The notes under the pieces: generated by a model
Databases searched by the model: none
What the model saw: only the letters and a program-made list of their open reading frames with translations
Told to the model about the DNA's origin: nothing
Translations under genes and position numbers: made by a program
From: a virus
Virus record (IMG/VR): IMGVR_UViG_3300036859_000153
Span: 1-20,485 of that record
Length of the DNA stretch: 20,485 bases
Reading direction: 5' to 3' (one strand)
Shown here: piece after piece, positions 4,485 through 20,485 of the stretch
Layout: the number at the start of each line of letters is the position of its first letter
How positions within the stretch are numbered: the stretch's first letter is position 1

Positions 4485-5926
4485 TACTCGAGTCGCCCAG
4501 TCTTCGGGTTATAGACCCGCTCTTTCGGCGCTCCGCCGCCGCTCTTCGCCAGATCGCGCAGCTCTTGCTTGGCCGCCGCCGGAGCCTTCGCCGCCGCCTC
4601 CGCCTCGATCATCATCTGATCAAGAACGGCGTGCATCTGCGCCGACGTCATGTCCCGGTTTAACATTTCTCGCGCGTGTTCTTTGTCGCTGACCGTGCCC
4701 GTTCCTGTTGGGCTGATAGCACGGGCATAGACGTTGACCAGTGTGTTGAGCGCAGCGCCAAGCTTTGCCTCTTCCGTGCTGCCTGTACCTGTTTCAAACG
4801 CTCGCCACGCGCGATTGACGGGCACGACACCGCCGCGGCTCACGTTGTTGATCGCGGTGCGCACGGTCGGGAGAATTTCTTTCAGCTCCTGACCGGCCAA
4901 GGCGAATGTCGCGGCCCGAGTGCCGATCGCCCGCTGCGACGCGCGCTGTCCAAATTGTTCGGCGATGCGCTGGTCAATATCTTCCGGCGCGATGCCTTGC
5001 TCTTTCGCGATCTCCGCAGCGCGTGCGTGAATCTTGGATAGATTTTCAGAACCCTGTGCGCCACGGCCGATGTTCGCCAGCGCATTCGGGCTGCCGGCGA
5101 CAACGCGACGCGCGATAGCATCGATCGCCTCATCGTCCATCAGGCCGGCCTTATATTTCTTATCCTTCTCCGCCAGCTCGCGCTCTTTGAGCTCCAATGC
5201 TTTCTTGCGATCCTCGGCTTTCTCGCGCGCCTCGGTGATCATGCGGTCGATGTTGCGCGTGCGCTCGGTCATCTGCGCCGTGTGGTACTCGTATTGCGCG
5301 ATGTTCTTGGAAATCTCACTCAGCCCGGACACACGCAACGCCTGTTCGTTGACCTTGTCCTGGTTGATGGTGGCGATCAACTTGAGCTGCTGCAGTTTTT
5401 GATCGCTCGTGAGCTTGTTGCTCTCAAGCACCATCTTGTATTGCGAGACCAGCTGATCATTGCTTTGCGAAACAACTTCGCTCTGCGCCTTCCAGGTCTT
5501 ATAGCTGCGATCGAATTTTTCCTTGTTGCCCTCTTTCATTCCCTCCAGCGCACCGCCGAACGCGGTGAGGGCATTAGTCGACGCATTGCGCCCGCGCACA
5601 CCGGCAAGAATGCCGAGCAAGGCTGCGGCGCCAAGCCACCCCTGGACGTCCGGCGCCATGTCAACTTCTTTCGGAGGCTCCGGAGGCTTTTGCAGCTGTG
5701 GCGGCTTGGGCAGCGTCTGGTTGAGCGCAGAGAACGCGCGCTTTTCCAGCGGCTCCATTTCCTTTCGGCCGCGCTCATATTCGGCCTCGCGCTTGGCCAT
5801 CGCCTCACGCTGGTCTTCAATCGATTTGTAGAACTGATTTTCGCGGCGATCATCGCCAGGCTCAGGCGGAGCCTCAGTTGTGCCGGGGCTTTCTACTTCG
5901 TCGCCGCCCGCCAGTCTTTCCACCAT
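4484..5926 (-). CDS. Internal virion / ejection-type protein with coiled coil and one hydrophobic segment (480 aa)
   Basis: ATG 5926 lies just after the upstream stop at 5928-5930; the longer open frame is a shadow. Residues 1-90 are acidic and Pro-rich, with charged helix EDQREAMAKREAEYERGRKE near 37-56. A hydrophobic segment GWLGAAALLGILAGV spans 96-110 and could enter a membrane. A Gln/Lys-rich helical region follows, with a long coiled coil from about 215 to 262 (dense Arg/Lys/Glu heptads). The C-terminal half has DDEAIDAIARRVVAGSPNAL at 264-283 and a helical block with ALNTLVNVYARAISPTGTGT at 392-411, patterns I know from phage structural proteins of unknown function. It ends VYNPKTGRLE. 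Placement between two other large proteins suggests a component of an ejection channel or inner core; this is inference. Confidence 0.82.
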   Translation of the reverse strand: MVERLAGGDEVESPGTTEAPPEPGDDRRENQFYKSIEDQREAMAKREAEYERGRKEMEPLEKRAFSALNQTLPKPPQLQKPPEPPKEVDMAPDVQGWLGAAALLGILAGVRGRNASTNALTAFGGALEGMKEGNKEKFDRSYKTWKAQSEVVSQSNDQLVSQYKMVLESNKLTSDQKLQQLKLIATINQDKVNEQALRVSGLSEISKNIAQYEYHTAQMTERTRNIDRMITEAREKAEDRKKALELKERELAEKDKKYKAGLMDDEAIDAIARRVVAGSPNALANIGRGAQGSENLSKIHARAAEIAKEQGIAPEDIDQRIAEQFGQRASQRAIGTRAATFALAGQELKEILPTVRTAINNVSRGGVVPVNRAWRAFETGTGSTEEAKLGAALNTLVNVYARAISPTGTGTVSDKEHAREMLNRDMTSAQMHAVLDQMMIEAEAAAKAPAAAKQELRDLAKSGGGAPKERVYNPKTGRLE

Positions 5927-7831: not shown

Positions 7832-10021
7832 CTAGTTGGTAAGGTTGCTCGATTTCATAGGCCCCGTCTCCTGGTACTCGATCATGATATAGTCCAGAGA
7901 TAGTCCGGCGATGACGCCACTTAGCGTTGCGCCCAACAGCAGGCCGGAGCCTGCCGCCTGAGTCTCTTCCCAGAAGAATCCTACAGGTTGCGTGAACGAA
8001 ATCGTGACCTGCGATTGCTCGGTGTCGGACGATAGGAAGAGCGTCCCGCCTGCCGTCGCCTCCTGCATCGTGCCGATACGCAATGCGCGCTTGCCCATGT
8101 ACGGCTTGCCATTGTCGGTCAACGCGGTCTGCACGATGAAAACTTGCGTCTGCGCCGCGTTGGCGAACATCCTCGTGAAGTCAGTCCCTGAGCTTGAGTA
8201 GACCTGCAGCGTGTTGCCGAGTGCCATCTGCGCCACGGCCACCTCAGAGCTGCTGCCACTCACCAAGAACCACCGCTTGTTGAAATAGCACATGAACATG
8301 GAACGGAGCTGATTGTTCAGGTCGAGCGCGTTCACGAGCAGGCAATAGCAACGGATGTTGTTGACGTCGCCAACCGCGGCCTGCAGATCAAGCGCAAAAT
8401 TCACGGTCCTATAAAGACCGTCCATCATGTCGGAGATTTTCTGCACCGACGCGCCGTAGACGGCGAAGACACCAACCGTGTTCGCGAACAGAACCAACCG
8501 CTCGTGAGACTGGATCGTCATAGGGAACGTGGTCCCCTGGTCTGACGAAAGCGAAAGGATGTTGAAGAGCGTAGTTGTGCCGCTGACCGTGATAGCGCCG
8601 ATCTGTTTGATCGCACCGTCGCCGAAAATATATAGGTAGTTGTTGAGACTGCGTAGCGCGGTGATCGAGTGCTTGAGATCAGCGTCCGTGATCACCGTCG
8701 ATCCGGCGGCATTCGCCGGATTGGTGTCATCAAACCCGAGAGTTCCCGTGTAGGTCAGCAGGCGACCGGACGACAACCACACGCGCCCCTGAAACACCGC
8801 AACTGATGCAGCAAACCCACCGCCTGTCCCGGCGATGACTTCCTCGGTCGCCGTCGCGGTCACCGGAGCCGGAGGCGCATCTATGGTGACCGTTGGGCCA
8901 CTTGTATAATTCGTTCCAGGCGAATCTCCGACGACCGCAGTCACCTTCCCATCCGTCAAAACAGCATGGGCCGTGGCTCCGGAGCCGCCCCCGCCCGTAA
9001 GAGTAACGGTTGGTGGAGACGGGTATCCAGACCCAGGATCGTCCACCGTGAAAGTAAACCCGACAAGGCCACCGGAAATATCTGAATGAGCGGTCGCCTG
9101 AACCCCAGCCGGCGGCGCTCCGATCGTGACCACGATCACATTACCAGCCTGCCACCCCGATCCGGAATTCGTCAGCTGAATGCCGACCACTCCGCCGCCC
9201 GAGATCGTCGAGACAGCTGTGGCGCCAGTGCCGCTGCCTCCAGTGATCGTCACCGTTGGAGCTGCGTAGTAATAAAAGCCTGGATTGGTGATTGCGAAGA
9301 TCGGCGAGAGCGTCACGAATGATCCACCGATGAATGGCCAAATGATCGCGGTCGCGGTCGCGGCGCCGGAACCAAACGTCACCGTCAGGACGTCGCCTGG
9401 CAGATAGCCTGAACCTGGGTTGGTCAACAGAACTTTGGTGACAACGCCGTTCGTGATCTGCGAGATCGCTGTTGCGCCGGAGCCCGTCCCGCCGGAAATC
9501 GTCACAGTCGGCGGAGCGCCGTAACCCGACCCGCCATTGGTGACGACAATGTTCGGGGAGACTCCGCCAGCAACGACAAATGTCAGATTATCATAGGTCG
9601 CATATCCAGCCTGCGGATCGTTGATCAGTATGCGTTCAGACTTCCATTGCGTGACGTCCGGGATTTTTGAGAACGTGCCCGCTGCGGCAAAATTGGTGAC
9701 GGCGCCGGTTGAGAGCTGGATGACATGGCCGCTGCCGGCCACCGTGAAGACCACGGCCCAATCGATGACGTTGGTGGGATCGGCTCCACCGCCGCCCGTG
9801 AACGTGGCGAAGAACGCACGAGTCACCGCGCTCGGCAAGGTCGCGAGCGCAGCAATCAGACCCGGCACCTGCAGCAGCTGGCTTGGTCCGATCGGCTGCA
9901 CGTTCTCCAGCCATGACGCATGCTTGGGGTCAAGCCCTTCGCGCGCACCCTGAGTGTCCATCGTCTGGATATCGCGAAAGACGATGTACTCAAGCGCGCT
10001 GCGTTTGTCGGGGCCGGCCAC
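7832..10021 (-). CDS. Tail hub / stabilisation-like protein with inserted GSGY repeats (729 aa)
   Basis: The start is GTG 10021, two bases after the upstream stop, with AGGA about eleven bases upstream. Residues 1-150 and 395-729 read like the beta-propeller-type podovirus tail or stabilisation proteins (P22 gp10 / T7 gp12 functional class): WKSERILINDPQAGYATYDN at 126-145, AVFQGRVWLSSGRLL at 408-422, a YLYIFGDGAIKQI segment at 462-474, then GTTFPMTIQSHERLVLFANT with GVFAVYGA just after it. Between these halves, residues 155-392 are six Gly/Thr/Val-rich beta repeats (GSGYGAPPTVTI, GSGYPSPPTVTL, GTNYTSGPTVTI and weaker copies). The repeats interrupt the propeller pattern and look like an insertion exposed on the tail. 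The protein likely closes the connector and carries the fibres; family naming is from pattern only. Confidence 0.82.
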   Translation of the reverse strand: MAGPDKRSALEYIVFRDIQTMDTQGAREGLDPKHASWLENVQPIGPSQLLQVPGLIAALATLPSAVTRAFFATFTGGGGADPTNVIDWAVVFTVAGSGHVIQLSTGAVTNFAAAGTFSKIPDVTQWKSERILINDPQAGYATYDNLTFVVAGGVSPNIVVTNGGSGYGAPPTVTISGGTGSGATAISQITNGVVTKVLLTNPGSGYLPGDVLTVTFGSGAATATAIIWPFIGGSFVTLSPIFAITNPGFYYYAAPTVTITGGSGTGATAVSTISGGGVVGIQLTNSGSGWQAGNVIVVTIGAPPAGVQATAHSDISGGLVGFTFTVDDPGSGYPSPPTVTLTGGGGSGATAHAVLTDGKVTAVVGDSPGTNYTSGPTVTIDAPPAPVTATATEEVIAGTGGGFAASVAVFQGRVWLSSGRLLTYTGTLGFDDTNPANAAGSTVITDADLKHSITALRSLNNYLYIFGDGAIKQIGAITVSGTTTLFNILSLSSDQGTTFPMTIQSHERLVLFANTVGVFAVYGASVQKISDMMDGLYRTVNFALDLQAAVGDVNNIRCYCLLVNALDLNNQLRSMFMCYFNKRWFLVSGSSSEVAVAQMALGNTLQVYSSSGTDFTRMFANAAQTQVFIVQTALTDNGKPYMGKRALRIGTMQEATAGGTLFLSSDTEQSQVTISFTQPVGFFWEETQAAGSGLLLGATLSGVIAGLSLDYIMIEYQETGPMKSSNLTN
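8846..9559 (-). repeat. Six GSGY-type beta repeats in the tail hub gene
   Basis: About six units of 35-45 residues occur in tandem, each with an xxNxGSGYxxxPxVTI core followed by GGxGxGATAxxxIxxG and a Val/Leu strand. Copies 1, 3, 5 and 6 keep PTVT; copies 2 and 4 (GSGYLPGDVLTV, GSGWQAGNVIVV) form a second subtype, so the block partly alternates between two kinds of unit. The same core occurs in the genes at 10023-10928 and 11338-12525. Confidence 0.8.
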
Positions 10022-10022
10022 T

Positions 10023-10928
10023 TCACATCCTGTTCAGGCGGCGATACCAGGATCGATAAACGTTCTGATAACGCCGATCCTGCCGCGTCAGTTTGATCTG
10101 CTGCAGCCTCGCCTCATACTTTTTGTTGAGGTAGTCCGCGTGCTCAAAATTCTGCAGCTTGATCAGCGCGAGGTGCGCCGCATAAAACTGCACCGCGTCA
10201 GCGTTGGGCTGCAATATCTGCAAGTCAGATTCCGACAGGCCCACCAGCGGATTCGGCAACACGATCGCATCAATCTCAGAGATATAAGATTGGTCGGGGA
10301 TCGGATACAGGAAGAACGCGTTGATTTCGTCGAAGTTGGTCCACACGCTCGGATTGCGAGAGAATGTCGGCAACGTCCGGCAGAACGCCTGGAACGGCGT
10401 GAAGGGGAGCCACCCCAGCGTGTAGCGGTTTGTGTTCCCCGGCCACAAGATGCTGATCGACAGGATATCGAGCACATTCAGCAATGTGATCGCCACCGCA
10501 GTCGCGGTTACGCCAGCGCCAGGCGGCGCGATCGTGATGGATGGCGTGGTGACATAGCCGCTGCCCCAGTTGGTGATTGTCACCAAGCTGACGGTGCCAG
10601 CAGCCGACACAGTCGCGACTGCCGTAGCCGTCACTCCGCCCGCCGGGGCTGCCGCAATCGTCACAGCAGGGGGAGCCGCCGGAGGCGGAGCATAGCCGGA
10701 ACCCGCAAGCGTGAGTTGGGCTCCGCCCACTCCGCCAGTGATCGGGTATCGCTCCTGCAGCGGGATCAGGTTGAGGCCGGTATAGAAACTGCGGACACAG
10801 TGAGCGTCGAGCGCGACGCGCTGGCGAGCAGTGTTGATATACCCGATCAGATCGGAATTGCTGAAATCGTTCCCCTGCAGGTCATGCACGAGCTGGCGGA
10901 CCTGCAGAATGTAGTCGGACAACAGCAA
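10023..10928 (-). CDS. Head-tail connector / adaptor-like protein with inserted repeats (301 aa)
   Basis: The preferred start is TTG 10928, just after the upstream stop at 10933-10935, with GCGAG upstream; TTG 10922 is an alternative and no ATG fits this frame. The N-terminus LSDYILQVRQLVHDLQGNDF followed by SNSDLIGYINTARQRVALDA is typical of podovirus tail-tube-A/adaptor-like proteins that bind the portal. The C-terminal part has a helix with ADAVQFYAAHLALIKLQNFE at 243-262, then YLNKKYEARLQQI, again typical. Residues 70-147 are two Gly-rich beta repeats (GSGYAPPP...VTI and GSGYVTTPSITI) separating the first helical pair from the rest; related adaptors lack this as far as I know. The gene lies directly before the hub gene, which supports the connector role. 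Confidence 0.8.
   Translation of the reverse strand: MLLSDYILQVRQLVHDLQGNDFSNSDLIGYINTARQRVALDAHCVRSFYTGLNLIPLQERYPITGGVGGAQLTLAGSGYAPPPAAPPAVTIAAAPAGGVTATAVATVSAAGTVSLVTITNWGSGYVTTPSITIAPPGAGVTATAVAITLLNVLDILSISILWPGNTNRYTLGWLPFTPFQAFCRTLPTFSRNPSVWTNFDEINAFFLYPIPDQSYISEIDAIVLPNPLVGLSESDLQILQPNADAVQFYAAHLALIKLQNFEHADYLNKKYEARLQQIKLTRQDRRYQNVYRSWYRRLNRM
10488..10721 (-). repeat. Two GSGY-type beta repeats in the connector-like gene
   Basis: Two copies of the repeat core, GSGY at residues 77-80 with a short Pro/Ala expansion and GSGYVTTPSITI at 122-133, each followed by APxxGVTATAV. The GVTATAV tail is shared by both copies and resembles GVQATA in the neighbouring genes. Confidence 0.78.
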
Positions 10929-10932
10929 AGCA

Positions 10933-11328
10933 TCACTCGCTTGGCCCCGGCGCGATCGTCTCCGGAATATCCTTGCGCGGGCGAGGCCCGCCGCGCTTGC
11001 TCACATACGTCGGGTCTTTGACTTCCACGAGCTGGTACGTGACCGGCCGAATGTCGAGATTGCCGAAGAACTTCACATCCTCGCCAGCCTTGACGCGGTC
11101 CAGTGTGTTCCACCCGAACCGCTTGCAGCAGTGCCGAAACTGTTCGTCCTCGGTCGCCTCCAGATGGAACCCGAACAGATGGTGCGCGGCATCCAGCGGG
11201 ATGTCTTGCGGCTTGCCAGGGGGAAACCGATACAAAATGGAGTCGCACCGATCCGCGATCTCGAAATCGTTGTGGTTCGTGATGCGGATGCGCGCGACGG
11301 TTGGCGCGAACGGGTCTTCTTTGTCCAA
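10933..11328 (-). CDS. Conserved small head or head-tail protein (131 aa)
   Basis: The start is TTG 11328, with GGAG in the stop-fused motif TAGGAGTC six bases upstream; the stop of the preceding gene is part of the motif. The protein begins MDKEDPFAPTVARIRITNHN, continues with a segment ending in SILYRFPPGKPQDIP at 30-44, then AAHHLFGF at 47-54, a Cys pair in FRHCCKRFGW, and a strand VKFFGNLDIRPVTYQLVEVKD. Its tail is Arg/Pro-rich. The arrangement RIxNhxxFxixdxxDxxxYxFxPGkpxxIPxxAAxHxFGF is one I recognise from phages, where the gene sits between capsid decoration and connector genes. The function is not known to me. Confidence 0.78.
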   Translation of the reverse strand: MDKEDPFAPTVARIRITNHNDFEIADRCDSILYRFPPGKPQDIPLDAAHHLFGFHLEATEDEQFRHCCKRFGWNTLDRVKAGEDVKFFGNLDIRPVTYQLVEVKDPTYVSKRGGPRPRKDIPETIAPGPSE

Positions 11329-11337
11329 GGTTGACTC

Positions 11338-12525
11338 CTAATCCATCAGTGCCGGCTGCAGAACGGACGTATCCGTGATGCCGCCGACCACGGCCGTAAA
11401 CACGCCGATCGTCGGCAGCGCCGCGTTGCCAAACTCCAGCACGCCGACGTTGACCACGCCCTGCAGGCCGAATCCTGGGTCTTCCACAACTGACGTGTTG
11501 CCAGACGTCGCAGTCAGCCTGCCGCGAGCCGCACGCGGGCCGAAAGCGTTGTTGTTGTTGAACAGCACCGGAGTTGCGCCGGTTGGCGTCAACGAGGTGA
11601 TGAATGGGGCGCCGACCGTATAGCCGGCGCCACCAGCGTTGGTGGCGGAGATGAAACAGAACGACGGTATCGCCGTTGCCGCCGCTGCGCCTGCACCCGT
11701 AATCGTGATGGTCGGGATCGTGGTGCCGGTATACCCCGCGCCGTAGGCCGTCATCACGATTGCGGTGACCGTCCCCGACCCCGTCAAGGCGCCAGCAGTG
11801 AGAACAGCGCCGCTGGGAGACTGCTGGACTTGCGTCCAGTTGATGCCGGGGAAGAACGGAGGCTGCTGGAAATTGAGAATGCCGGGCGGCACGATCGACG
11901 GCGGGCCCGCCGGATTCACCGGAACGCCAATGCCAACATAGGTGCTGTACTGCGGAATGACGTACACATTGGGGACGGCCGTGTAGCCGGCGCCAGGGTT
12001 GACGAGGGTAACGGCGTTGATGACGCCGCCAGAGATCGTGCACGTGGCGGTCGCCTGGACGCCGCCCGGCGGGGGAGCATCGATGACGATGATCGGCGCT
12101 ACCACAAACCCGGAACCGCCGTTGGTGATCACGATGCCGGAGAGCGCGCCACCGACGACCGCATACGCGGCGGCTGCCTGGCCGTTGGCCGGCGCCGCGC
12201 CGAATGAGACGGCGACACCAGTTGCAGCCTGCCCGATGCCGTTGACTGCGCCGGAACCCGCGTTGGTGATCACCGCGGCGTTGACCACGCCAGACATATT
12301 GATCAGGCGGTAGTTGTAACCGTCGCAGGAAATGACGGTGTGCATTCCGCCTTGCGGGTTGTCGACATTCCGCCAGGAGAGCAGCACAGGGTCGAAATAC
12401 TGCATGACGGTCTGCCCGCCTGGGCTGACGAAATAGTTTCCGGCGGGGACATAGAAGACGCCGCCGGCCGGCAGCGCCACCGGGACCGCCGCTTGGCCAA
12501 ACGGGAAAGCTCCACCGAGACGCAT
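11338..12525 (-). CDS. Capsid decoration-like protein with GSGY repeats (395 aa)
   Basis: ATG 12525 follows the stop-fused ribosome site TAGGAGTC directly after the capsid gene. The N-terminal part has ALPAGGVFYVPAGNYFVSPG at 18-37, TVMQYFDPVLLSWRNV at 39-54 and SCDGYNYRLINMSG at 66-79, a pattern found in phage proteins encoded right after the major capsid protein. From about residue 84 the protein is dominated by Gly/Ala/Val-rich beta repeats: GSGFVVAPIIVI at 137-148, GAGYTAVPNVYV at 178-189, GAGYTGTTIPTITI at 262-275 and GAGYTVGAPFIT at 299-310, with a Pro/Gln-rich linker at 200-245. No catalytic motif is present. An outer-capsid decoration or head-fibre role is inferred from position and repeats. 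Confidence 0.8.
   Translation of the reverse strand: MRLGGAFPFGQAAVPVALPAGGVFYVPAGNYFVSPGGQTVMQYFDPVLLSWRNVDNPQGGMHTVISCDGYNYRLINMSGVVNAAVITNAGSGAVNGIGQAATGVAVSFGAAPANGQAAAAYAVVGGALSGIVITNGGSGFVVAPIIVIDAPPPGGVQATATCTISGGVINAVTLVNPGAGYTAVPNVYVIPQYSTYVGIGVPVNPAGPPSIVPPGILNFQQPPFFPGINWTQVQQSPSGAVLTAGALTGSGTVTAIVMTAYGAGYTGTTIPTITITGAGAAAATAIPSFCFISATNAGGAGYTVGAPFITSLTPTGATPVLFNNNNAFGPRAARGRLTATSGNTSVVEDPGFGLQGVVNVGVLEFGNAALPTIGVFTAVVGGITDTSVLQPALMD
11596..11778 (-). repeat. Second GAGY repeat block in the decoration-like gene
   Basis: Residues 250-310 hold two further units, GAGYTGTTIPTITI and GAGYTVGAPFIT, separated from the first block by a Pro/Gln-rich linker of about 50 residues. Confidence 0.72.
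11959..12276 (-). repeat. First GSGY/GAGY repeat block in the decoration-like gene
   Basis: Residues 84-189 contain a degenerate unit (NAGSGAVNG), then GSGFVVAPIIVI and GAGYTAVPNVYV, with GGVQATATCTISGGVI between the last two. The units match those of the tail hub gene in order and spacing. Confidence 0.75.
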
Positions 12526-12534
12526 TGCGGACTC

Positions 12535-13542
12535 CTAGATGTTCAGGAAGGCGAGGTTGTCAAACTTCCCGTGCGCCTTCGGCTTGACGTCGACCAGCTC
12601 GATCAGCGTCACGACTGCGCCGACATAGCCGAGCTGGTTGTTCGGCAGCGTCGACTCGAATCCGGTGAAGTAGAAGTTCGCCCGCTCGTGCAGATAGGCG
12701 CTGAGGTAGTCGTTGTTGAGCAGATACAGCGTCCCCTCCGGACAGTTCGGGTCCGCGTAGAAGGGGACGCCCGCGACGTCGAGAGCTTGGAAGAGAGAGG
12801 CGACCTTGCCGTTCTCGAATGAGCCGGACGGCGTGATCAGGTAGCGCTCTTGCGAAGTGAAGTCCTGGGCAAGCTGGGTCCACGTGCCGAACCCCATGAG
12901 TCCCATTTTCGGCCGCTCGCCCGTCACCTTGGTGACCTGTGCAATGTACTGCAGCATGAGGTTGCGGGTCGGTACGGTCGGCGAGCCATTGTGCACGTAG
13001 GTCGAACGCCAGAAGGCATTCGCCGTGCGCGAGATGTTGCCGTAGTTGACTGAGAACGTGCCGTCATCGACCGCGGCCGGCAGGCCGATCATGGCGTTCT
13101 GGTTGGCAACGTTCGTGAACAGATCGCTGGAGAAACGATCGAGCGTGACGTTGGTGACGTCGTTCATGCGCGCCTCGATCAGCGGAACCACCGCGTAATC
13201 GAGCTGCACTAGACCCTCGAGTCCGATGAATGGGACCGCCGTGAGGTAGCCCTTGAGGTTGAATTCCGCGTTCTGCAGACCTGGCGTCACGCCCGGCTGA
13301 TTGAACGAACCGTCATAGCCGATGGTCTGGATTGCCACCATCGGGTTGCCCTGCAGCGGGACGGTGATTGGCGAGAGACCGCCGCTAGCTGTCTGCGCAT
13401 GCGATAGCACCGCGGCGAGGAACGGTGTCGACCGCCAGAGCTGGACGATCACCTTGGGAATGAACGCGCGCCGCGTGACGGCCGCAAGCTCTGCCGCAAC
13501 GGCGCCTTGCGCCGGGACGATGCCTTGTCCGAATACGGGCAC
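12535..13542 (-). CDS. Major capsid protein, HK97-like fold (335 aa)
   Basis: The start is GTG 13542 with AAGGAG nine bases upstream, the strongest ribosome site among the large genes here, as expected for the most abundant protein. Features of the HK97-type coat are readable: an N-terminal arm (1-60), an E-loop-like segment around 61-105, a long spine helix around QLDYAVVPLIEARMNDVT (113-130) continuing to NVTLDRFSSDLFTN, and the typical closing strands LDVAGVPFYADPNCPEGTLY at 254-273, then LLNNDYLSAYLHERANFYF and a terminal strand VTLIELVDVKPKAHGKFDNL. The length of 335 residues is usual. It follows a scaffold-like gene and precedes the decoration-like gene. The assignment rests on pattern, size and gene order together. 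Confidence 0.88.
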   Translation of the reverse strand: MPVFGQGIVPAQGAVAAELAAVTRRAFIPKVIVQLWRSTPFLAAVLSHAQTASGGLSPITVPLQGNPMVAIQTIGYDGSFNQPGVTPGLQNAEFNLKGYLTAVPFIGLEGLVQLDYAVVPLIEARMNDVTNVTLDRFSSDLFTNVANQNAMIGLPAAVDDGTFSVNYGNISRTANAFWRSTYVHNGSPTVPTRNLMLQYIAQVTKVTGERPKMGLMGFGTWTQLAQDFTSQERYLITPSGSFENGKVASLFQALDVAGVPFYADPNCPEGTLYLLNNDYLSAYLHERANFYFTGFESTLPNNQLGYVGAVVTLIELVDVKPKAHGKFDNLAFLNI

Positions 13543-13556
13543 GATCAGACTCCTTG

Positions 13557-14063
13557 TTACCGATGCGCGGCGTTGATCCTATCGATCTCGGCATACGCTT
13601 GGTTGCGCGCTGCGGTGATCGGGTCGTCGAGCAAGCCGGGCAGTTCCGGCAGCGACCATGGCCCGCCTTCCGGCTTGGGCCGATGATTGGACGGATGCGC
13701 TGGGGCGCGGTCGTTGGAGTAGAGGATTGCGCCGGCCTCGTAATCGGAGAGACCGAGCGACTGCATCTTGGTCTCGATCTCTTTCACCTGGTCTTCGGTG
13801 TAGCGACCGCTGCTGATCAGCATGGCGCGCGCCGCGCTCAAACGTCTGGTCGTCTCTTCCGTCGCCCGGTCAAGGCGCTCTTGCTCGAGTCGCGTCTCCA
13901 TTTCCTCGCGCAGATCGGCGACGTCAGCGTCCGGGAACCGGCGGTCCGGTTCAACCTCTTTCACCTGTTTGATGAAAGCGCGCCTGGTCTTAGCATTGGT
14001 CGCCAGCTTGACGGCCAACAGCCCGTACTCTTTCAGGGTCGCGTCATCCAAATCACGAGGCAT
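13557..14063 (-). CDS. Scaffold-like protein before the capsid gene (168 aa)
   Basis: ATG 14063 overlaps the end of the upstream gene by 11 bases and has GGGGAG about twelve bases before it; the longer frame is a shadow. The protein is hydrophilic and helical: DDATLKEYGLLAVKLATNAK at 6-25, then a long charged segment DVADLREEMETRLEQERLDR at 47-66 that continues to about 82, then VKEIETKMQSLGLSDYEAG. The last third is Pro-rich with a short terminal helix ARNQAYAEIDRINAAHR. Charged, helix-rich proteins of this size immediately before the capsid gene are usually scaffolds, with the C-terminal helix contacting the coat. That helix is not strongly basic, so the scaffold call is probable rather than certain. 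The TAA stop is two bases from the capsid ribosome site. Confidence 0.75.
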   Translation of the reverse strand: MPRDLDDATLKEYGLLAVKLATNAKTRRAFIKQVKEVEPDRRFPDADVADLREEMETRLEQERLDRATEETTRRLSAARAMLISSGRYTEDQVKEIETKMQSLGLSDYEAGAILYSNDRAPAHPSNHRPKPEGGPWSLPELPGLLDDPITAARNQAYAEIDRINAAHR

Positions 14064-14325
14064 CGTCGAAAGGCTCCCCTTTGCGGGACATGATGGCGCC
14101 CGAGCCGGCGAGCGGCGTCCGGTAATTCGAGCGCTTGGCATAGCTGGGCTTGTCGAGATCGAACCCGTTCAGGCCGGGAAAGCTCTGAGGGTTGCTGTAG
14201 TATTTGGCGCGGCCGTAGTCGTCACCCATGCCAAAGGGCTGCGGAATGGCATCGCCGGCAGTCGAGCCCTTTGGGCGCCCGCCCTGCCGGCCAATGATTC
14301 CGCGCTTGATCGACGGCCGCCACAT
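14053..14325 (-). CDS. Unknown small head-region protein (90 aa)
   Basis: ATG 14325 shares a base with the stop of the preceding gene (TGATG), which fixes the start inside a much longer open frame. The product is rich in Gly, Arg, Ser and Pro, with little predicted secondary structure: GRQGGRPKGSTAGDAIPQPF at 12-31, YYSNPQSFPGLNGFDLDKPS at 42-61, and a tail SRKGEPFDDAS. Its disordered look suggests an arm or linker between larger particle proteins. I do not recognise a family. Confidence 0.68.
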   Translation of the reverse strand: MWRPSIKRGIIGRQGGRPKGSTAGDAIPQPFGMGDDYGRAKYYSNPQSFPGLNGFDLDKPSYAKRSNYRTPLAGSGAIMSRKGEPFDDAS

Positions 14326-14525
14326 CAGATGGGTTTCCCGGACCTCGCTTGCGGCGTCTTTTCGAGCGACATGGTCGACGCCTCCGGCATCGGAATCTTG
14401 TCCGCGCTCGTGAGACCGCCAAATCGCACGTAGCCGGGCACGTTCACGAACATGCCGCGATTGCGCTCGCGCACGCCGATCTTGCCGGCCTTCACCTTCG
14501 GTTTCAGATACGCATATTCGGCCAT
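14325..14525 (-). CDS. Unknown small head-region protein (66 aa)
   Basis: ATG 14525 follows the stop-fused ribosome site TAGGAGTC. The 66-residue product starts MAEYAYLKPKVKAGKIGVRE, then RNRGMFVNVPGYVRFGGLTS, and ends with a Lys/Pro-rich tail. The first half is basic and may form two beta strands; the rest looks flexible. The strong ribosome site and overlap with the next gene support a real gene. No family is recognised. Confidence 0.72.
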   Translation of the reverse strand: MAEYAYLKPKVKAGKIGVRERNRGMFVNVPGYVRFGGLTSADKIPMPEASTMSLEKTPQARSGKPI

Positions 14526-14534
14526 GGGAGACTC

Positions 14535-15005
14535 CTACATTGGAACGCCGAGGCCCGGCGGTGCTGGCGGCGGGCCGGCGCCCGGCTCTGGTGTTGCAGT
14601 TGCAATACCCGGCGGCATCGCGCCTGGCAAGGGCGCGCCAGATTTCGCGGCCATTGCCATCTGCTGGATTGCGCTCGGAACAAGCGACTCTTGATTCTCT
14701 TTCCCAAAGTTCGACGTCAGCGCGCGGATGGCGTTCAGCAGTCCGTTGTACTTCTTTGAGCCGACCGCGTAGGCACCGAGCGCCTTGTGCAATCCGGGGA
14801 TCATGCTCTTGATCATCGCGTCGGCTGCGGCCTCTTGGCCGGCACCGCCGCCAGGCGCCATGGCCGGACCGCCGCCGGGACCACCGGGACCGCCAGCAAC
14901 GTTGCCTGGGAGCTTGGGCGCGCCGCCCATTGGCCCAGCTCCGCCAGGGGCAGGCGGGGGCGGTGCGCCAGGTGGCATTCCGGGAGGCATTCCAGGCACG
15001 GGCAT
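14535..15005 (-). CDS. Pro/Gly-rich protein with central helical domain (156 aa)
   Basis: ATG 15005 is the first start after an in-frame TAG. Residues 1-55 are almost pure Pro, Gly, Met and Ala (PGMPPGMPPGAPPPPAPGG at 4-22). Residues 58-122 form a helical domain, including MIKSMIPGLHKALGAYAVGS at 64-83, KYNGLLNAIRALTSNFGK, and SAIQQMAMAAK. The last 35 residues return to Pro/Gly. A short helical core framed by disordered arms between the portal and scaffold suggests a minor head protein or assembly cofactor. In podovirus clusters a gene of this type is common just after the portal, but I do not know its function. Confidence 0.75.
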   Translation of the reverse strand: MPVPGMPPGMPPGAPPPPAPGGAGPMGGAPKLPGNVAGGPGGPGGGPAMAPGGGAGQEAAADAMIKSMIPGLHKALGAYAVGSKKYNGLLNAIRALTSNFGKENQESLVPSAIQQMAMAAKSGAPLPGAMPPGIATATPEPGAGPPPAPPGLGVPM

Positions 15006-15025
15006 GCCGGTTTGCTACAGCAACT

Positions 15026-15358
15026 CTAAAATGCGCGCAAGTGAGCGTACGCCAACTTGCCCACATAGACCGCGAAGGCGAGCACTTCGCGCTCTAGCTG
15101 TGCGCGCTCTCGCGCTAACCTTCTGACAGGTGGCCGGCGCTTTTTTTCATAGGCGTTTTTGATCTCGCGCCGATCCTTGCGGCGTTCGTATTGCCGACGC
15201 CAGCGCACTCGGGATTTCTTGCGAGCACGCGCCTTGCTGTATGCGCGCCAGTCCACAAGCCGCTGCTCGTGCGCGTGCTCGGGCGAGCAATACCATTGGT
15301 TGGCGGAGGTTTTCTCGAATGTCGCGCCGCACCAGCGGCAGTCAGCGGGAGCGAACAT
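15026..15358 (-). CDS. Zinc-finger basic protein (110 aa)
   Basis: ATG 15358 has only a weak AGG upstream. The N-terminus has a zinc-binding pattern: C7-x2-C10, then C24 and H28/H30 (ADCRWCGATFEKTSANQWYC, then SPEHAHEQR). The middle (about 38-90) is extremely basic, with RARKKSRVRWRRQYERRKDR at 44-63, and the last 20 residues form a more hydrophobic helix EREVLAFAVYVGKLAYAHLRAF. A treble-clef-like finger plus a basic arm suggests nucleic-acid binding. A resemblance to the zinc part of HNH nucleases is possible, but no HNH motif follows. The ribosome site lies within the 3' arm of the hairpin at 15363-15411, so translation may depend on that structure. Confidence 0.72.
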   Translation of the reverse strand: MFAPADCRWCGATFEKTSANQWYCSPEHAHEQRLVDWRAYSKARARKKSRVRWRRQYERRKDRREIKNAYEKKRRPPVRRLARERAQLEREVLAFAVYVGKLAYAHLRAF

Positions 15359-15362
15359 GGCG

Positions 15363-15411
15363 CCTGAAAAGCAAAGCCCCGATCGGGGTTGCCGGGGCTC
15401 TACTTTTCAGG
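15363..15411 (-). terminator. Long hairpin, probable intrinsic terminator overlapping a ribosome-binding site
   Basis: A near-perfect 49-base inverted repeat: outer arms CCTGAAAAG (15363-15371) and CTTTTCAGG (15403-15411), three positions with two mismatches, then inner arms AGCCCCG (15375-15381) and CGGGGCT (15393-15399) with an 11-base loop. On the minus strand the inner GC stem is followed by TTTGCTTTT, the usual form of a Rho-independent terminator; the outer arms make it work as a longer stem too. The last bases of the stem include AGG, five bases before the start of the zinc-finger gene. Confidence 0.7.
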
Positions 15412-15441
15412 GGGCAAAGATACGCGTCAAGAGGCTTTCGG

Positions 15442-15504
15442 CTAGCGCCGACGGCGCCTGCTCTTGCGGCCGCGCCGAAACGCCTCGGGGGTCTTGGTCA
15501 GCAT
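15442..15504 (-). CDS. Arginine-rich micro-ORF (20 aa)
   Basis: ATG 15504 has an excellent ribosome site, AAAGGA at 15511-15516 with six bases of spacing. The frame reads MLTKTPEAFRRGRKSRRRRR and ends in TAG at 15442. Half of the residues are Arg or Lys and the last five are all Arg. Its size and charge recall RNA-binding Arg-rich peptides of phages (such as the N peptides), and also leader peptides whose Arg codons slow ribosomes before a downstream hairpin. Both ideas are inference. It lies between a promoter-like sequence and a terminator-like hairpin, so it could be the only product of a short transcript. Confidence 0.5.
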   Translation of the reverse strand: MLTKTPEAFRRGRKSRRRRR

Positions 15505-15549
15505 GGTGATTCCTTTCATTACCGCTACAGGGCGGGCTTGTTTCGCTTG

Positions 15550-15563
15550 ATCCCTCACGGGAT
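15550..15563 (-). ncRNA. Short hairpin with GTGA loop at the predicted transcript 5' end
   Basis: On the minus strand, ATCCC-GTGA-GGGAT forms a 5-bp stem with a GNRA-class tetraloop, a highly stable small RNA fold. It lies right at the start site predicted from the promoter at 15569-15596 (about 15562), so it would cap the 5' end of the transcript. Confidence 0.4.
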
Positions 15564-15568
15564 GCCCC

Positions 15569-15596
15569 AAAATAGCATTGCCCCCGCAACCGTCAA
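15569..15596 (-). promoter_or_regulatory. Sigma70-like promoter upstream of the micro-ORF
   Basis: On the minus strand, TTGACG (15596-15591, five of six to the -35 consensus) is followed after 16 bases by TATTTT (15574-15569, four of six to the -10). It is the best promoter-like pair I found in the window and falls in the only sizeable gap among the head genes. The predicted start is near 15562, about 46 bases before the micro-ORF ribosome site. Confidence 0.5.
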
Positions 15597-15603
15597 TGGT
15601 TGC
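15586..15603. promoter_or_regulatory. Operator-like dyad over the -35 element
   Basis: Six-base inverted arms GCAACC (15586-15591) and GGTTGC (15598-15603) are separated by six bases, which with one arm base make up the -35 hexamer of the promoter. Placement over the -35 is typical for a repressor site, though a dyad this short can arise by chance. Confidence 0.4.
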
Positions 15604-15621
15604 CGCCAACTCCTGCCCACG

Positions 15622-17367
15622 TCATACCGGCATGGCTGGCGCAACCCCGTTTTTGCCCTTCGGACCAGGCTTGCCAGCCTGCTTTGTCGGATCAGCGGCC
15701 TCCGCCGCCTTGGCGGCTTGCTCAGCCTTGATCCGCTGCCGCAACTTGGCGATCAGCACAGCAGCATTCGGTGGATTGCGCAGGCGGATGAATTGCTCGC
15801 GGTCGATCGCATCCGCTTTCTTGAGCAAGATGGATTCCTCTTTTGCCTCGTCAGCGAACAGTGGCGAGTGCGAGTGCCCGGCAATGCGGATGCGCCAATC
15901 GCCGACCTGCGCCAGCAAGAACTCTCCCGGAACACCCTGCCCGACCAGGCGCTGCGGATCGTTCCGCCGCATCAGGCTCAGAGACAGATCAGCCAAGCGC
16001 ACCAGCGCCGGCTCGAGTCCAACCGCAACCTTGCGGATGCGGGCCGATCCGGTTACGGCCAGTTGTCGCGCATGCCCCTTGCCGCGCACACCAGCCTCGC
16101 CTTTGCCGCTCACCGTCTCAGTGAGTCCCGACGCCTCAAGGAAAACCTCGCCGATCGATTTGAACTCGGCGAAGATGTCCGGCGGCATCGGCGGGCGCAA
16201 CTCTTCCACCTTGGCACCAGGCATCATGTCGAGCACCCACGTGCCAGGTCCACCGAGCGCGCCAGCCTTTTCGTCGCTCAACCCGTTGAACCCAGAGAAC
16301 ACCTTGGCCGGATCAATCTGCCGCTCCAAAACTTCCCTGATATTGTCGAGCGTGCCGTTGGTCCAATCCTGCAACTTGATCAGCCGATCGCAGTGTGACT
16401 CACCCCAGAAATATTCGGGCAGCTCGTAAGGGCGGAATTGGACGAATGGGTGATCCTGTTTCATGAAGATGTTCGTGTGCGACGCGTATTGCGGCCGACT
16501 GCCCTCGCCAGCTTTCGACGCCTTCGCAAGCGCCTCGATCGTCTCACGCGAGTCCGATAGAATGATATCGTTCTCAGCGACGGTGAACGTCACGTAGTCT
16601 TCGGCCAGATCATCCCACACCCACAGCTCGTGCATGGCCACCATGACGGCATCCGAGCGTGGCTCATAGTCCGCGTTCGGCTGATAGTTGGTCTGCGACT
16701 GCCCCATGATCGGGCCGGACAGGTTGGCGCCACCCGTCGCGGTGATCAGCAGGTTGGCCAGTGCCGGAGGCAGCAACGATGCGGTGGGACCGGCCGATGT
16801 CGAAAGGCGCTTGATCTCTGATTTCTTACCGGCGCGAATCAGCCGCAGCACGGCGTTGTCCCAATTCAGATGGTAGGTGTGGACGAACGCCTCCTGACTA
16901 TCCAGGTCCGGCTCGCTCTCGTCATAGACCCCGAAGTTGTGCGGGGTGATCATCTTCGCGTACAGCTCGTCCCTGGACTCGTGCCAGCCGAGCTTGAAGA
17001 ACACGCTGTCATAGACAAGCGCCCAAAGCAGCGCGAGCGTGATTTGAAATGCCAGGCCGGAGTCGCGGAACTCGTCATTCCAGCAATCTTCCACCGCCTC
17101 CATTTGCGACACCACCTCGGGCGGAGAGTTCGGCGGCGCAGCCACAGTGTAGCGCGCATGGTCTGCCGCGTAGAGGAACGACGCCACAAGGTCCGTGTGC
17201 GACATCAGTCGGTTGTAAAGGATCGGCTCGTATGAATACGTCCCGAACAGGAAGTAGCGGCGGCGGCGATCATAGAGCGAGATACGCGTCTGCTGCGACT
17301 GCAGACAACAGTCGAGAATGTACTTCACCTTTTGCGAGCGCGCGGGCTCGGTGCGCGGGATGATCAT
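15622..17367 (-). CDS. Portal protein (581 aa)
   Basis: ATG 17367 overlaps the zinc-ribbon gene stop (ATGA). The length fits podovirus-type portals. Readable elements include the N-terminal helix region with YNRLMSHTDLVASFLYAADH at 51-70, the wing-type VYDSVFFKLGWHESRDELYA at 118-137 followed by ITPHNFGVYDE, DHPFVQFRPYELPEYFWGES at 305-324, the helix KLQDWTNGTLDNIREVLERQ at 331-350, and the stem/crown region with GHARQLAVTGSARIRKVAVG at 431-450. The C-terminal 40 residues are Ala/Lys/Gly/Pro-rich and likely disordered. It forms the dodecameric ring through which the terminase packages DNA and to which the adaptor-like protein at 10023-10928 would bind. Position after the large terminase supports the call. 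Confidence 0.88.
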   Translation of the reverse strand: MIIPRTEPARSQKVKYILDCCLQSQQTRISLYDRRRRYFLFGTYSYEPILYNRLMSHTDLVASFLYAADHARYTVAAPPNSPPEVVSQMEAVEDCWNDEFRDSGLAFQITLALLWALVYDSVFFKLGWHESRDELYAKMITPHNFGVYDESEPDLDSQEAFVHTYHLNWDNAVLRLIRAGKKSEIKRLSTSAGPTASLLPPALANLLITATGGANLSGPIMGQSQTNYQPNADYEPRSDAVMVAMHELWVWDDLAEDYVTFTVAENDIILSDSRETIEALAKASKAGEGSRPQYASHTNIFMKQDHPFVQFRPYELPEYFWGESHCDRLIKLQDWTNGTLDNIREVLERQIDPAKVFSGFNGLSDEKAGALGGPGTWVLDMMPGAKVEELRPPMPPDIFAEFKSIGEVFLEASGLTETVSGKGEAGVRGKGHARQLAVTGSARIRKVAVGLEPALVRLADLSLSLMRRNDPQRLVGQGVPGEFLLAQVGDWRIRIAGHSHSPLFADEAKEESILLKKADAIDREQFIRLRNPPNAAVLIAKLRQRIKAEQAAKAAEAADPTKQAGKPGPKGKNGVAPAMPV

Positions 17368-17843
17368 TCGGTCGGCCTATGTCTCGCGACCACCTGTGTC
17401 ATCTGCTGCAGGCGCTGACGACCGGCTGCCGCTTGCGCTGGATTCACAGTCCCCACCGGCCTGAACGACGATCCGACTCCGGTCGGGGAGCACACGGCGC
17501 CGTTATAGGGAAGGTCAGGCGTGCCCATCTGCCCGTTGATGTTGACCGGCATCTTGACGCCGCCATATTGCCCGCCAGCCGGCCGCAGCGGTATCCCGCG
17601 CGCGGGCTCGGGCGCACGCTTGACCGCCTCACCCTGGCGGGCTGTCTGGAAATTGGAGAGGCCGAACTGCGCAGCCAGGTCTCTACTCGACCGGTCGACG
17701 CCGGTTGCGACGGCGCGAATGGCAATACCTTGTGGCACCCACCGGGCGCGCGTACCCTTGCACTTTGGGCACCGGGGTCTGTTGACGGCGACGGTGTAGG
17801 TCTTGCCGCAGCTCTGATTTAGACAACGGTAGGTCCAGCTCAT
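17364..17843 (-). CDS. Zinc-ribbon protein between terminase and portal (159 aa)
   Basis: ATG 17843 is preferred over GTG 17849 two codons earlier; TAGG lies upstream of both. The N-terminus has four cysteines in a zinc-ribbon order: C7-x4-C12 and C25-x2-C28 (TYRCLNQSCGKTY, then RPRCPKCKG). The rest has no clear fold: a short helix SSRDLAAQFGLSNFQTA at 52-68, then Gly/Pro/Asn-rich sequence and a C-terminal helix AQAAAGRQRLQQMTQVVARH. Small zinc ribbons between terminase and portal genes occur in several phage groups; they could bind DNA during packaging or help the motor dock, but I know of no tested function. The gene is coupled to the portal by overlap. Confidence 0.78.
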   Translation of the reverse strand: MSWTYRCLNQSCGKTYTVAVNRPRCPKCKGTRARWVPQGIAIRAVATGVDRSSRDLAAQFGLSNFQTARQGEAVKRAPEPARGIPLRPAGGQYGGVKMPVNINGQMGTPDLPYNGAVCSPTGVGSSFRPVGTVNPAQAAAGRQRLQQMTQVVARHRPTE

Positions 17844-17888
17844 AGGCACGCCTATAAGCCCAGAAATACAAGTAGTAAAGCCAACCCA

Positions 17889-19745
17889 TCATTGGCGTTG
17901 CGTCACGTCGATGCGCGCGCGGCGTAGATAGTCGATTACCATCGCCTGCGCCACGCGCTCCGGCGGGATCGGACCACTCTGGCTTTCCCGCTCCAGCACA
18001 ACCTTGTAGGTCGCCCCGTTGCCCAGCATCCGAGGCTGCACCCAGCGTTTCCATGCCTCATGAGCGAGGCCGCTGGCAATGGCACGGTCGTCTTTTTTGG
18101 CGCCCTCCGCCTCAATCACGCCGTCCTCGATCTTGATCGAGCGCATCTCTTCCAGGCACGGCATGGATCGAATGATGATGCGGCCAAGGTCGACCGAATC
18201 CTTGAACGCCGACATCATTGAGAACTTGTTCATTTCGGTCATCTTCCATTGGAACAGCAGACCACCCGAGAGGCTGTCCGCGCGTCGGTACAGAAAGTGC
18301 CGCATATTGTTGAGCACTCCCTTAATGTCGTTCTCGTGAGGCATCGCCGGCATGCGCGACATCCCAACCTTGAGACTGTTCAGCTCATTGAACACTGCCT
18401 CGCCGGGGCCGTTCATTTCAAGGTTGACCATCGTCGTCTGATACCAGCCAGCCAAATGCGCGAGCACCCAGGCGCAGTGGTAGGTGGAGGCAACGACGCT
18501 CACCCACTCCGCCACCTGAAAGAGCCGATCAGCAAAGCAGCGGTAGATCGAGATCGAGTGCCGATCTCCCTTGTCGGATCGCCCATAGGCGACATCGCAG
18601 CCGATCACGTATTCGTTGCCAGGCTTGGGCGGCTCCCACACACGCAATCCGGCCCGCCGGTCCTGGGTCTCCATGACACCAAGGTCTTTCCACTCTGCCC
18701 CGAGCACGTAGTTGTAGAGCCGCAGCTTTGTTGCTTTGGCCGCTTTCATCTGCATGCCTAGTGCCGCGTTCGTGAAGAACTTAGCGCCGGTTGCCTGGAA
18801 CGCGTCTTCGTCCGTCCACGGAAACATTTCGTCCATCTTGGCTTGATCGCCGTTGCATTCATCGTCGAGTTTCCAGCGATACCAAGCGACTTGCTCGTGC
18901 GTCACCTCAAAGTCGGCGGAGTCTTTGACGTCACGAACGCGCCTGCGCTCAAGCGGCGTGAGCGTTTCCTTGAGACCTTTCGGCATGTACTGCAGAAAGC
19001 GCGGGTCTTCCTGATCGAACGCGTACAGCTCGTTCCGCCACCAACCTATGAAAATCGCGCGCATGCCTGGTGACATCTTCGCCTGCTCATACATGTCGTG
19101 GAAAAAATTGAACCCGCGAGCGGTCGTCTCATCAATCTGTAGGCGATGCTTGTAGTGCGTCGACATCGCCGCGCGTAGCTCTTTCAAATCTTCCTCGCTG
19201 CCCCAGTTGGCCGTTTCGGTGCGGTGCGCGAAATTGTACGCGCCACCGCGCCCGAGACCGGCCTTTTTCCCAGCCTTCTCACGCGTGCCGGCAACAAGGT
19301 ATGTGAACTGACTTCCGTTCTTGAAGATCAGCATCGTTCGGTTGTGCTTGCTGACCTTGACCTTATGCGATGGCGGCAGATGCGCGAGGAAGACATCCAC
19401 GATCGCCCTGATCTGGTCGCGATTTGTGTCGGCATGTGTAGCAATGCAACCTGACAGACCCGGATGCTCAAAGGCCCAAAATAGATCGATCGCGAGCCAG
19501 AGGGTGGACAAGCCAAGTTGGCGAGCCTTGAGAATGCAGAAAGTAGACACCCCTTCCGCGAGACCCTTTTCGATTTCATCGAGAACATAGAGCTGTGTCC
19601 CCAGCAAGTTGTCATGCAGCGTCTGCAGACCGAAATCCTTGGTCTGCACCTTGAGCACCTTTAGAAATTTCATGAACCGCTCGCGCGGGAACGGCGCTAC
19701 CGCGGTATCCGCAATTCGATTTGTGACTCTTGGCGCATGTGCCAT
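17889..19745 (-). CDS. terL: Terminase large subunit, ATPase and nuclease (618 aa)
   Basis: Packages DNA into the prohead at the portal. Numbering from ATG 19745: the Walker A-type KARQLGLST is at 73-81; HRTETANW at 174-181 is the region after Walker B common in this family; YRWKLDD and FPWTDEDAFQATG at about 289-320 are typical linker motifs. The RuvC-like nuclease acidic residues are visible: D384 in GCDVAYG, E443 in NLEMNGPG, and D552/D553 in KKDDRAIASGLAHEAW. All key motifs appear intact. The open frame extends to 19901, but its first part is antisense-like shadow of the small-subunit gene. ATG 19745 overlaps that gene by 49 bases with only a distant GGGAG; ATG 19673, just after it, is an alternative start. 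Confidence 0.93.
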   Translation of the reverse strand: MAHAPRVTNRIADTAVAPFPRERFMKFLKVLKVQTKDFGLQTLHDNLLGTQLYVLDEIEKGLAEGVSTFCILKARQLGLSTLWLAIDLFWAFEHPGLSGCIATHADTNRDQIRAIVDVFLAHLPPSHKVKVSKHNRTMLIFKNGSQFTYLVAGTREKAGKKAGLGRGGAYNFAHRTETANWGSEEDLKELRAAMSTHYKHRLQIDETTARGFNFFHDMYEQAKMSPGMRAIFIGWWRNELYAFDQEDPRFLQYMPKGLKETLTPLERRRVRDVKDSADFEVTHEQVAWYRWKLDDECNGDQAKMDEMFPWTDEDAFQATGAKFFTNAALGMQMKAAKATKLRLYNYVLGAEWKDLGVMETQDRRAGLRVWEPPKPGNEYVIGCDVAYGRSDKGDRHSISIYRCFADRLFQVAEWVSVVASTYHCAWVLAHLAGWYQTTMVNLEMNGPGEAVFNELNSLKVGMSRMPAMPHENDIKGVLNNMRHFLYRRADSLSGGLLFQWKMTEMNKFSMMSAFKDSVDLGRIIIRSMPCLEEMRSIKIEDGVIEAEGAKKDDRAIASGLAHEAWKRWVQPRMLGNGATYKVVLERESQSGPIPPERVAQAMVIDYLRRARIDVTQRQ

Positions 19746-19954
19746 AGCTTGAATGCCAGCTCCCGGAAGGGACGCACGTGCTGGCGCCGCACCTTCCCAG
19801 GTTTGACAGTTAGACCACGCCGCCGCGCTTTGCCAGTGACTGAGCCCTTGCTGCGGGCAAGGCGCTCTGCGCACCAGACCGGGCCGAACGGCCCGTACCA
19901 CTGGTCAAGGAATGATAGTTCCCCAGCGCTCCATGGCTGCTCGCGGGCCCTCAT
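19697..19954 (-). CDS. Helix-turn-helix protein, likely terminase small subunit (85 aa)
   Basis: ATG 19954 forms an ATGA overlap with the upstream stop, which picks it out of a longer frame. The sequence shows a SANT/GcrA-like DNA-binding fold: PWSAGELSFLDQWYGPFGPV at residues 7-26, then CAERLARSKGSVTGKARRRG with the Rs-x-x-sV-x-x-KA-x-x-xGL pattern seen in this class. The remainder is basic with a helix RPFRELAFKLWHMRQE. Phage small terminases recognise the packaging site with an N-terminal helix-turn-helix and oligomerise through the rest; 85 residues is short for the known ones. The 49-base overlap with the large subunit supports the pair. A transcription regulator of GcrA type is the main alternative. 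Confidence 0.7.
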   Translation of the reverse strand: MRAREQPWSAGELSFLDQWYGPFGPVWCAERLARSKGSVTGKARRRGLTVKPGKVRRQHVRPFRELAFKLWHMRQESQIELRIPR

Positions 19955-20265
19955 GCCTTGGCCGCAGCCTCCATCTTGGCGAAGTTGCCCCGCGGGCGAG
20001 TCGGCGGCAGATCGCGAGGTATCAAAGCGGCAGCGCTCGGCCACTCCTTTGCCGGCGCTCCCTTCCTCTCCGACACGAGATCGGCAATGATCTGCCGTAG
20101 CGTGTCGCGCTCGTGCTCCAGCGCCGCTAACCTGGATTTCACCAACTGCTCTTGCGCGTACTGACGTTCCTTGCGCTCCACCTCTGCGCGCTTGGCCTGC
20201 GCCTCGACATACTGGCACGCGCGCCGCGTGAGGCGTCGCGTCACGCATACTTGGCAATGTCCCAT
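19951..20265 (-). CDS. Small coiled-coil protein with N-terminal CxxC (104 aa)
   Basis: ATG 20265 shares a base with the upstream stop (TGATG) and has AAGG seven bases before it; a GTG one codon earlier is possible. The N-terminus MGHCQVCVTRRLTRRACQYV has Cys4, Cys7 and Cys18, perhaps a partial metal site. Residues 20-68 form a strong charged coiled coil (including EAQAKRAEVERKERQYAQEQ and ALEHERDTLRQIIADLV). The C-terminus is Pro/Arg-rich. The gene is joined at both ends by overlaps, so it is translated with the terminase genes. Possible roles include packaging accessory or lysis spanin-like partner, but no signal or membrane segment is seen. I do not recognise it. Confidence 0.72.
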   Translation of the reverse strand: MGHCQVCVTRRLTRRACQYVEAQAKRAEVERKERQYAQEQLVKSRLAALEHERDTLRQIIADLVSERKGAPAKEWPSAAALIPRDLPPTRPRGNFAKMEAAAKA

Positions 20266-20485
20266 CACCTCGCCTTTCGTTTTTTCTTCCTCGTGCCGCG
20301 CACCTTGGTCGCAGCCACCTGGGTCGCAGCCTCCGCCTCCAAGCGGGTATTCTCCCCCTCCAGCCTCCTATTTTTAGACTCCGCCTTGTTGAGCATGTCC
20401 CGCAGGTGGGCGTTGTAATATCTCTCCATGGCGCGGATTTGCTCGATCCGCTGCTGCGCCTCGGTCACCTCCTTCTCAAACCGCT
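20265..20485 (-). CDS. Partial coiled-coil protein, N-terminus beyond right edge
   Basis: The frame is open to the window edge and the upstream residues (RFEKEVTEAQQRIEQI) continue the helix smoothly, so the true start probably lies outside. An internal GTG at 20468 and ATG at 20429 are possible starts, but neither has a ribosome site at a useful distance. The visible 72 residues are one charged coiled coil with heptads over most of the length, then a very basic end TRKKKRKAR. Its stop overlaps the start of the next gene. No family is recognised; by position it belongs to the same packaging operon. Confidence 0.68.
   Translation of the reverse strand, partial: RFEKEVTEAQQRIEQIRAMERYYNAHLRDMLNKAESKNRRLEGENTRLEAEAATQVAATKVRGTRKKKRKAR

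Follow-up and report, generated by a model that had tools for sequence, protein, structure and literature searches.

A large group of soil and freshwater phages, almost entirely uncultured, carries a family of very short genes for arginine- and lysine-rich peptides between the portal and the capsid genes. Comparison among these phages strongly supports the view that the micro-ORFs are real genes under selection for the peptide, and each of them usually appears to form a predicted transcription unit of its own, with a promoter and a terminator. The member from which the comparison was made lies on the minus strand of the window, which is an entire IMG/VR virus record (20,485 bases) and possibly a fragment of a larger genome; the most complete relatives are about 40–44 kb long. 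What the peptides do is a matter of more graded judgment, and the possible functions are considered below together with the evidence that bears on each of them.

The micro-gene unit and its surroundings in the window

Terminase, portal and major capsid protein (12535-13542) are all encoded on the minus strand of the window, together with several small genes. The portal gene (15622..17367) lies directly upstream of the micro-gene unit; its match to the PHROG portal family is weak, and in tblastn it matches the annotated portal proteins of the GenBank records MW202825 and MW202753. On the other side of the unit is a small ORF (15026..15358, minus strand) whose start is CxxC zinc-finger-like and which matches PHROG 12986 and, weakly, NinG/Rap. 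This ORF is outside the unit, beginning 4 nt past the terminator stem, and because no counterpart was seen at that place in the relatives that were read, it looks like an insert. Its ribosome site is a weak AGG located inside the terminator stem. Another small observation on the neighborhood comes from two relatives, in which a segment past the capsid gene (L004:10506-10811 and L005:9746-10051) resembles a portion of the major capsid protein's C-terminal half, with about 32–35% identity.

The initial annotation had described this gap as a separate unit of promoter, ORF and terminator encoding an Arg-rich peptide, a proposal that is now well supported by comparison. The promoter, TTGACG-16-TATTTT, was recovered at its place by a consensus scan, with the -35 box at 15591..15596 and the -10 box, which has a TG in front, at 15569..15574 (both on the minus strand). 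It is the sole minus-strand consensus match in 10000-20485, and its score of 16 places it among the top-scoring upstream regions of 110 relatives. Judged from the window sequence alone, 2 promoter matches were found against 2.4 expected, and the window promoter, taken without the relatives, could be of chance origin. It is their conservation in relatives, not the window alone, that leads us to accept the promoter and the terminator as more than chance.

An operator-like dyad (GCAACC-6-GGTTGC, 15586..15603, minus strand) can indeed be read from the sequence, but an operator role for it is not supported. By our estimate arms of 6 bases are about what chance provides for such a gap size, no equivalent was seen by eye at the -35 of relatives, and the dyad is probably fortuitous. 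The GNRA hairpin noted at the predicted 5′ end of the transcript is likewise present in the fold (AUCCC-GUGA-GGGAU, 15550..15563, minus strand), but its loop is not conserved, differing among the relatives when compared by eye; the stability of the 5′ leader in the window is not unusual (z -0.45).

The remaining elements were confirmed in the sequence as described. A Shine-Dalgarno site AAAGGA (15511..15516, minus strand) stands 6 nt 5′ of the ATG at 15504, which opens the micro-ORF MLTKTPEAFRRGRKSRRRRR (15442..15504, minus strand) of 20 codons, the last five of them Arg. The long hairpin with a T-rich tail is an intrinsic terminator at 15363..15411 on the same strand: the core (15398-15376) sits within an extended stem of about 20 pairs (15411-15363) and is followed by the tail TTTGCTTTT (15375-15367). 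The window peptide is a divergent, N-terminally extended member of the family, and its own coding claim therefore rests on where it lies, on its basic tail and on the ribosome site and terminator that flank it, alongside the conservation of the family and the purifying selection seen in its relatives.

The micro-ORF family in related phages

Scanning with the portal and capsid proteins brought up relatives in IMG/VR as well as the two GenBank records, both environmental phage genomes; kept at 90% portal identity, the set contains 129 distinct relatives. A scan of a genome collection yielded three loci only, all of them in metagenome-assembled bins whose hosts are uncertain. The micro-ORF was sought as a basic ORF with a required Shine-Dalgarno site no more than 700 nt past the portal, and under this definition it was present at 111 of the 129 loci, as compared with 2 on the antisense strand and 2.7 +/- 1.7 in dinucleotide shuffles. 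In a further look at relatives, 22 loci gave no standard match; at most of these the ORF was found behind an insert, overlapping the end of the portal gene, N-terminally longer, or slightly below the charge cut-off. At least three loci (L059, L068 and L132) have no such micro-ORF. A convincing micro-ORF is also absent at this place from Mx8, Microcystis phage Mwe-JY13 and Stenotrophomonas phage BUCT555, and from a TM7 phage, a faecal contig and Hydrogenobaculum phage 1, which are distant relatives.

The peptides usually occur in one to three copies per genome and are 10–28 aa long, with a few longer, and about 60% of their residues are Arg or Lys. The median member has 13 aa (mostly 10–16) and a charge of +8, acidic and large hydrophobic residues being nearly absent. 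Examples from relatives are MARRHRRGRRR, MKRKHKRGRRKHKRK and MARRKGRRKGRKHRRK; many freshwater members have two micro-ORFs (MYKKMKRGRKTRR then MARKSRKGRKARK) or three. Pfam and PHROG gave no match for six longer members, one of them the window peptide; peptides of such short length can hardly match there at all. No description of Arg-rich phage micro-peptides like these was found in the open-access literature, and a prior description elsewhere is possible.

The place of the micro-ORF between the portal and capsid genes is fixed, even behind inserts, and it is the same head-operon position in relatives whose portals are only about 30% identical. This constancy bears on the idea that the peptide is aimed at the host, as a takeover or accessory factor acting on ribosomes, membranes or nucleic acids and carried by a moron-like unit. 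Binding to ribosomes or membranes is common among tiny cationic peptides, and a gene with its own promoter and terminator does resemble an added one; accessory genes, however, are not expected to be nearly universal at a single position of the head operon across such divergent portals, and we consider the host-directed role unlikely.

Selection for the peptide

The coding argument was based on pairs of nearest neighbors chosen solely by portal similarity; an alternative set of pairs, picked by peptide similarity, is biased. Among the portal-based pairs there were 35 amino-acid differences in the peptide, against a neutral expectation of 87.6 and a minimum of 74 in 500 simulations. A telling pair is L033 and L034, whose 16-aa peptides are identical while several of the Arg codons have switched between CGN and AGR. 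The choice between Arg and Lys follows the GC content (r 0.61), and since the two residues interchange in this way, it is the charge that is conserved, more than the exact sequence.

The same substitutions decide the standing of the small regulatory RNA that the initial annotation offered as a possible product, in which case the ORF would be incidental. A promoter, structured leader and terminator would delimit a compact RNA some 200 nt long, as befits such a product. The relatives, however, alter the nucleotides but keep the peptide, and their ribosome sites are conserved as well; a small RNA as the main product was therefore rejected, and we regard it as highly improbable.

Transcription signals across the relatives

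Predicted upstream promoters with a score of at least 14 were found at 45% of the loci, compared with 4% in shuffles, and terminators with a score of at least 18 at 62%, compared with 1.5%; both kinds of signal are thus enriched at the places where the window has them. In 91% of the strong promoters, the -35 box is 80–115 nt 5′ of the ORF, and in the window it is at 92. One relative, L048, has within about 150 nt past position 5002 a tRNA-like sequence that ends in CCA and, by eye, apparently has a CAT anticodon; it sits between the micro-ORF and the terminator.

A second predicted promoter follows the micro-ORF at 56% of the loci (10% in shuffles). That of the window, TTGCGC-17-TAGCAA (15012..15040, minus strand), lies 6 nt 5′ of the ATG at 15005 that starts the next head gene; its -35 box is weak, and the equivalent in relatives is TTGACG-18-TATCAA. 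At 14 of 59 GC-rich loci, the window included, the next head gene begins 2–9 nt past the -10 box. This head gene past the unit is proline-rich and has a predicted near-leaderless promoter, the -10 box being only about 6 nt from the start (15005-15040 in the window; L031, L036, L177 and others).

These signals are of consequence for a further proposal of the initial annotation, namely that the unit is an attenuator controlling the capsid genes, and for the related idea of an antitermination switch. In either case polymerase would be let through the terminator, whether by ribosomes translating the Arg codons or by the peptide binding the hairpin. The ORF does stand directly 5′ of a strong terminator, and the GNRA hairpin and Arg-rich peptide of the window recall lambda N and boxB. 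Nevertheless, Arg and Lys interchange, which indicates that no tRNA is being sensed, and a uniform run of one amino acid's codons, of the attenuator type, was not found across the family. Conservation of the GNRA loop is lacking, a separate promoter is predicted for the next head gene in the window and many relatives, and in some relatives the micro-ORF overlaps the portal end with no gap upstream; such overlapping micro-ORFs presumably rely on the upstream message. Taken together, a switch of either kind seems very unlikely. The trans-acting peptide that was also envisaged fits the data, but an antiterminator function is not supported, given the unconserved hairpin and the fact that most members consist of the basic stretch alone.

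Leader RNA structure and the freshwater pseudoknot

The leaders of the GC-rich, mostly soil-type loci, among them that of the window, fold as a group slightly better than shuffles (mean z -0.69, 53 loci), and no fixed loop common to the soil-type leaders was found. The freshwater relatives have an H-type pseudoknot 5′ of the second or only basic micro-ORF, for instance at L085:5237-5300, L023:8331-8396 and L014:8670-8730, and at more than 80 further loci. Its first stem, S1, occurs as GGG/CCC, CGG/CCG, CAG/CTG, CTG/CAG and AGG/CCT, and the 7-bp S2 as GGCTGCT/AGTGGCC, GGCTGAC/GTTGGCC, AGCTGCT/AGTGGCT and GGCTGAT/ATTGGCC. Both stems pair completely in 36 of the 37 sequences; the search fixed the core letters of S2 and left free the two end pairs that covary strongly. 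In a MAFFT alignment, S1 of which is shifted in five rows, two-sided changes were counted in 41 cells, against 11.2 +/- 4.4 in shuffles and 0–10 with slid partners, relatedness being a factor that inflates such counts. A scan with a DNA pattern that made no use of the peptide returned 113 matches, 84 of them with the full pseudoknot; in 83 of the 84 a basic micro-ORF comes next, while the remaining one is at a contig end. No gathering-level match to Rfam was obtained for the window and ten relatives, with chance-level matches only around L085, and the pseudoknot is apparently undescribed so far.

Such a structure invites the suggestion that the peptide is an RNA-binding regulator of structured leaders, its own and perhaps others, controlling the translation or stability of head mRNAs. 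Arg-rich peptides bind RNA hairpins, the pseudoknot in the freshwater group is found only 5′ of the micro-ORF (the 83 of 84 above), and the leader pseudoknot of T4 gene 32 offers a precedent (PMC535899). On the other hand, the pseudoknot is absent from the window, nor was it detected in the soil group, where the leaders have no fixed loop in common; it is located 5′ of the ribosome site, not covering it; and two or three copies of a regulatory peptide per genome would be odd. We consider regulation of this kind possible, though rather doubtful.

A proposed protamine-like role in the phage head

The explanation that we favor, with confidence that is about evenly divided, is that the micro-ORF encodes a dedicated protamine-like polycation, which would bind and condense the nucleic acid of the phage while heads are built and DNA is packaged. 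In outline, a sigma70-like promoter would produce the transcript of about 200 nt, and the leader hairpin together with a good ribosome site would permit strong translation of the 20-residue polycation. The terminator would stop the transcript ahead of the next head genes, which have a predicted promoter of their own. The polycation would be made alongside the head proteins and neutralize or condense the phage nucleic acid. It is from the extreme charge, the conservation of that charge, the copy number and the position among head genes that we infer a nucleic-acid-binding role in the head; strong expression, DNA binding and presence of the peptide in the head are part of this same inference. 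Tailed phages package their DNA with a motor and generally do not need a condensing peptide, which counts against the condensing role. A basic peptide could also bind RNA equally well, which counts against DNA packaging as such, and the freshwater pseudoknot hints at regulation. A more ambitious picture joins the two: a lineage of tailed dsDNA phages may build its heads with protamine-like micro-peptides made from insulated micro-transcripts, which in the freshwater branch would be controlled by binding of the peptide to the leader pseudoknot. We offer it as a tentative and, in its entirety, somewhat improbable proposal.

Genes of 10–20 codons slip past annotation, and the two GenBank records illustrate the point: in both MW202825 (L023:8246-8506) and MW202753 (L024:4740-5038) antisense hypothetical ORFs are called over the micro-genes, which are themselves missed. 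Conserved polycation genes at one fixed position in so large a phage group would suggest that condensing peptides are used by some tailed phages, where they have been thought unneeded in the presence of a packaging motor. As a candidate new RNA element, the pseudoknot also offers an easy way to search for such phages.

Comparison with known systems

Protein J of phiX174 (Microviridae) is a very short, strongly basic, DNA-binding protein, the gene of which lies beside the capsid gene. The micro-ORF peptides are likewise very short, strongly basic and encoded near the capsid genes; J, in contrast, comes from an ssDNA phage with neither portal nor motor, and at such lengths a sequence relation between J and the micro-ORF peptides cannot be shown. 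The P6.9 protein of baculoviruses, a protamine-like core protein, is small and basic, condenses the viral DNA and aids its packaging (PMC6669607). It matches the proposed role of the peptides in being a small basic DNA-binding protein, and its dsDNA virus fills preformed capsids; it differs in its length of about 50 aa, its regulation by phosphorylation and its eukaryotic virus, and the two are compared here as analogs.

On the RNA side, T4 gp32 regulates through the pseudoknot in the leader of its own gene 32 (PMC535899). The freshwater group, and only this group, has a comparable arrangement, in which a pseudoknot of about 30 nt precedes the ribosome site in front of a gene for a putative nucleic-acid-binding protein, but both the sequence and the protein are different, and the window is without the pseudoknot. 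With lambda N and boxB, the window shares an Arg-rich peptide and a GNRA hairpin, although the hairpin loop is not conserved in relatives, and no region like that with which lambda N contacts NusA and RNA polymerase was found in the family, most members being 10–16 aa of basic stretch only. Like J, P6.9 and adenovirus mu, the peptides are short, strongly basic and encoded near capsid genes, and as far as sequence comparison can tell, the family would join the small basic nucleic-acid-binding proteins of viruses, its novelty being that the proteins come from micro-genes in tailed phages.
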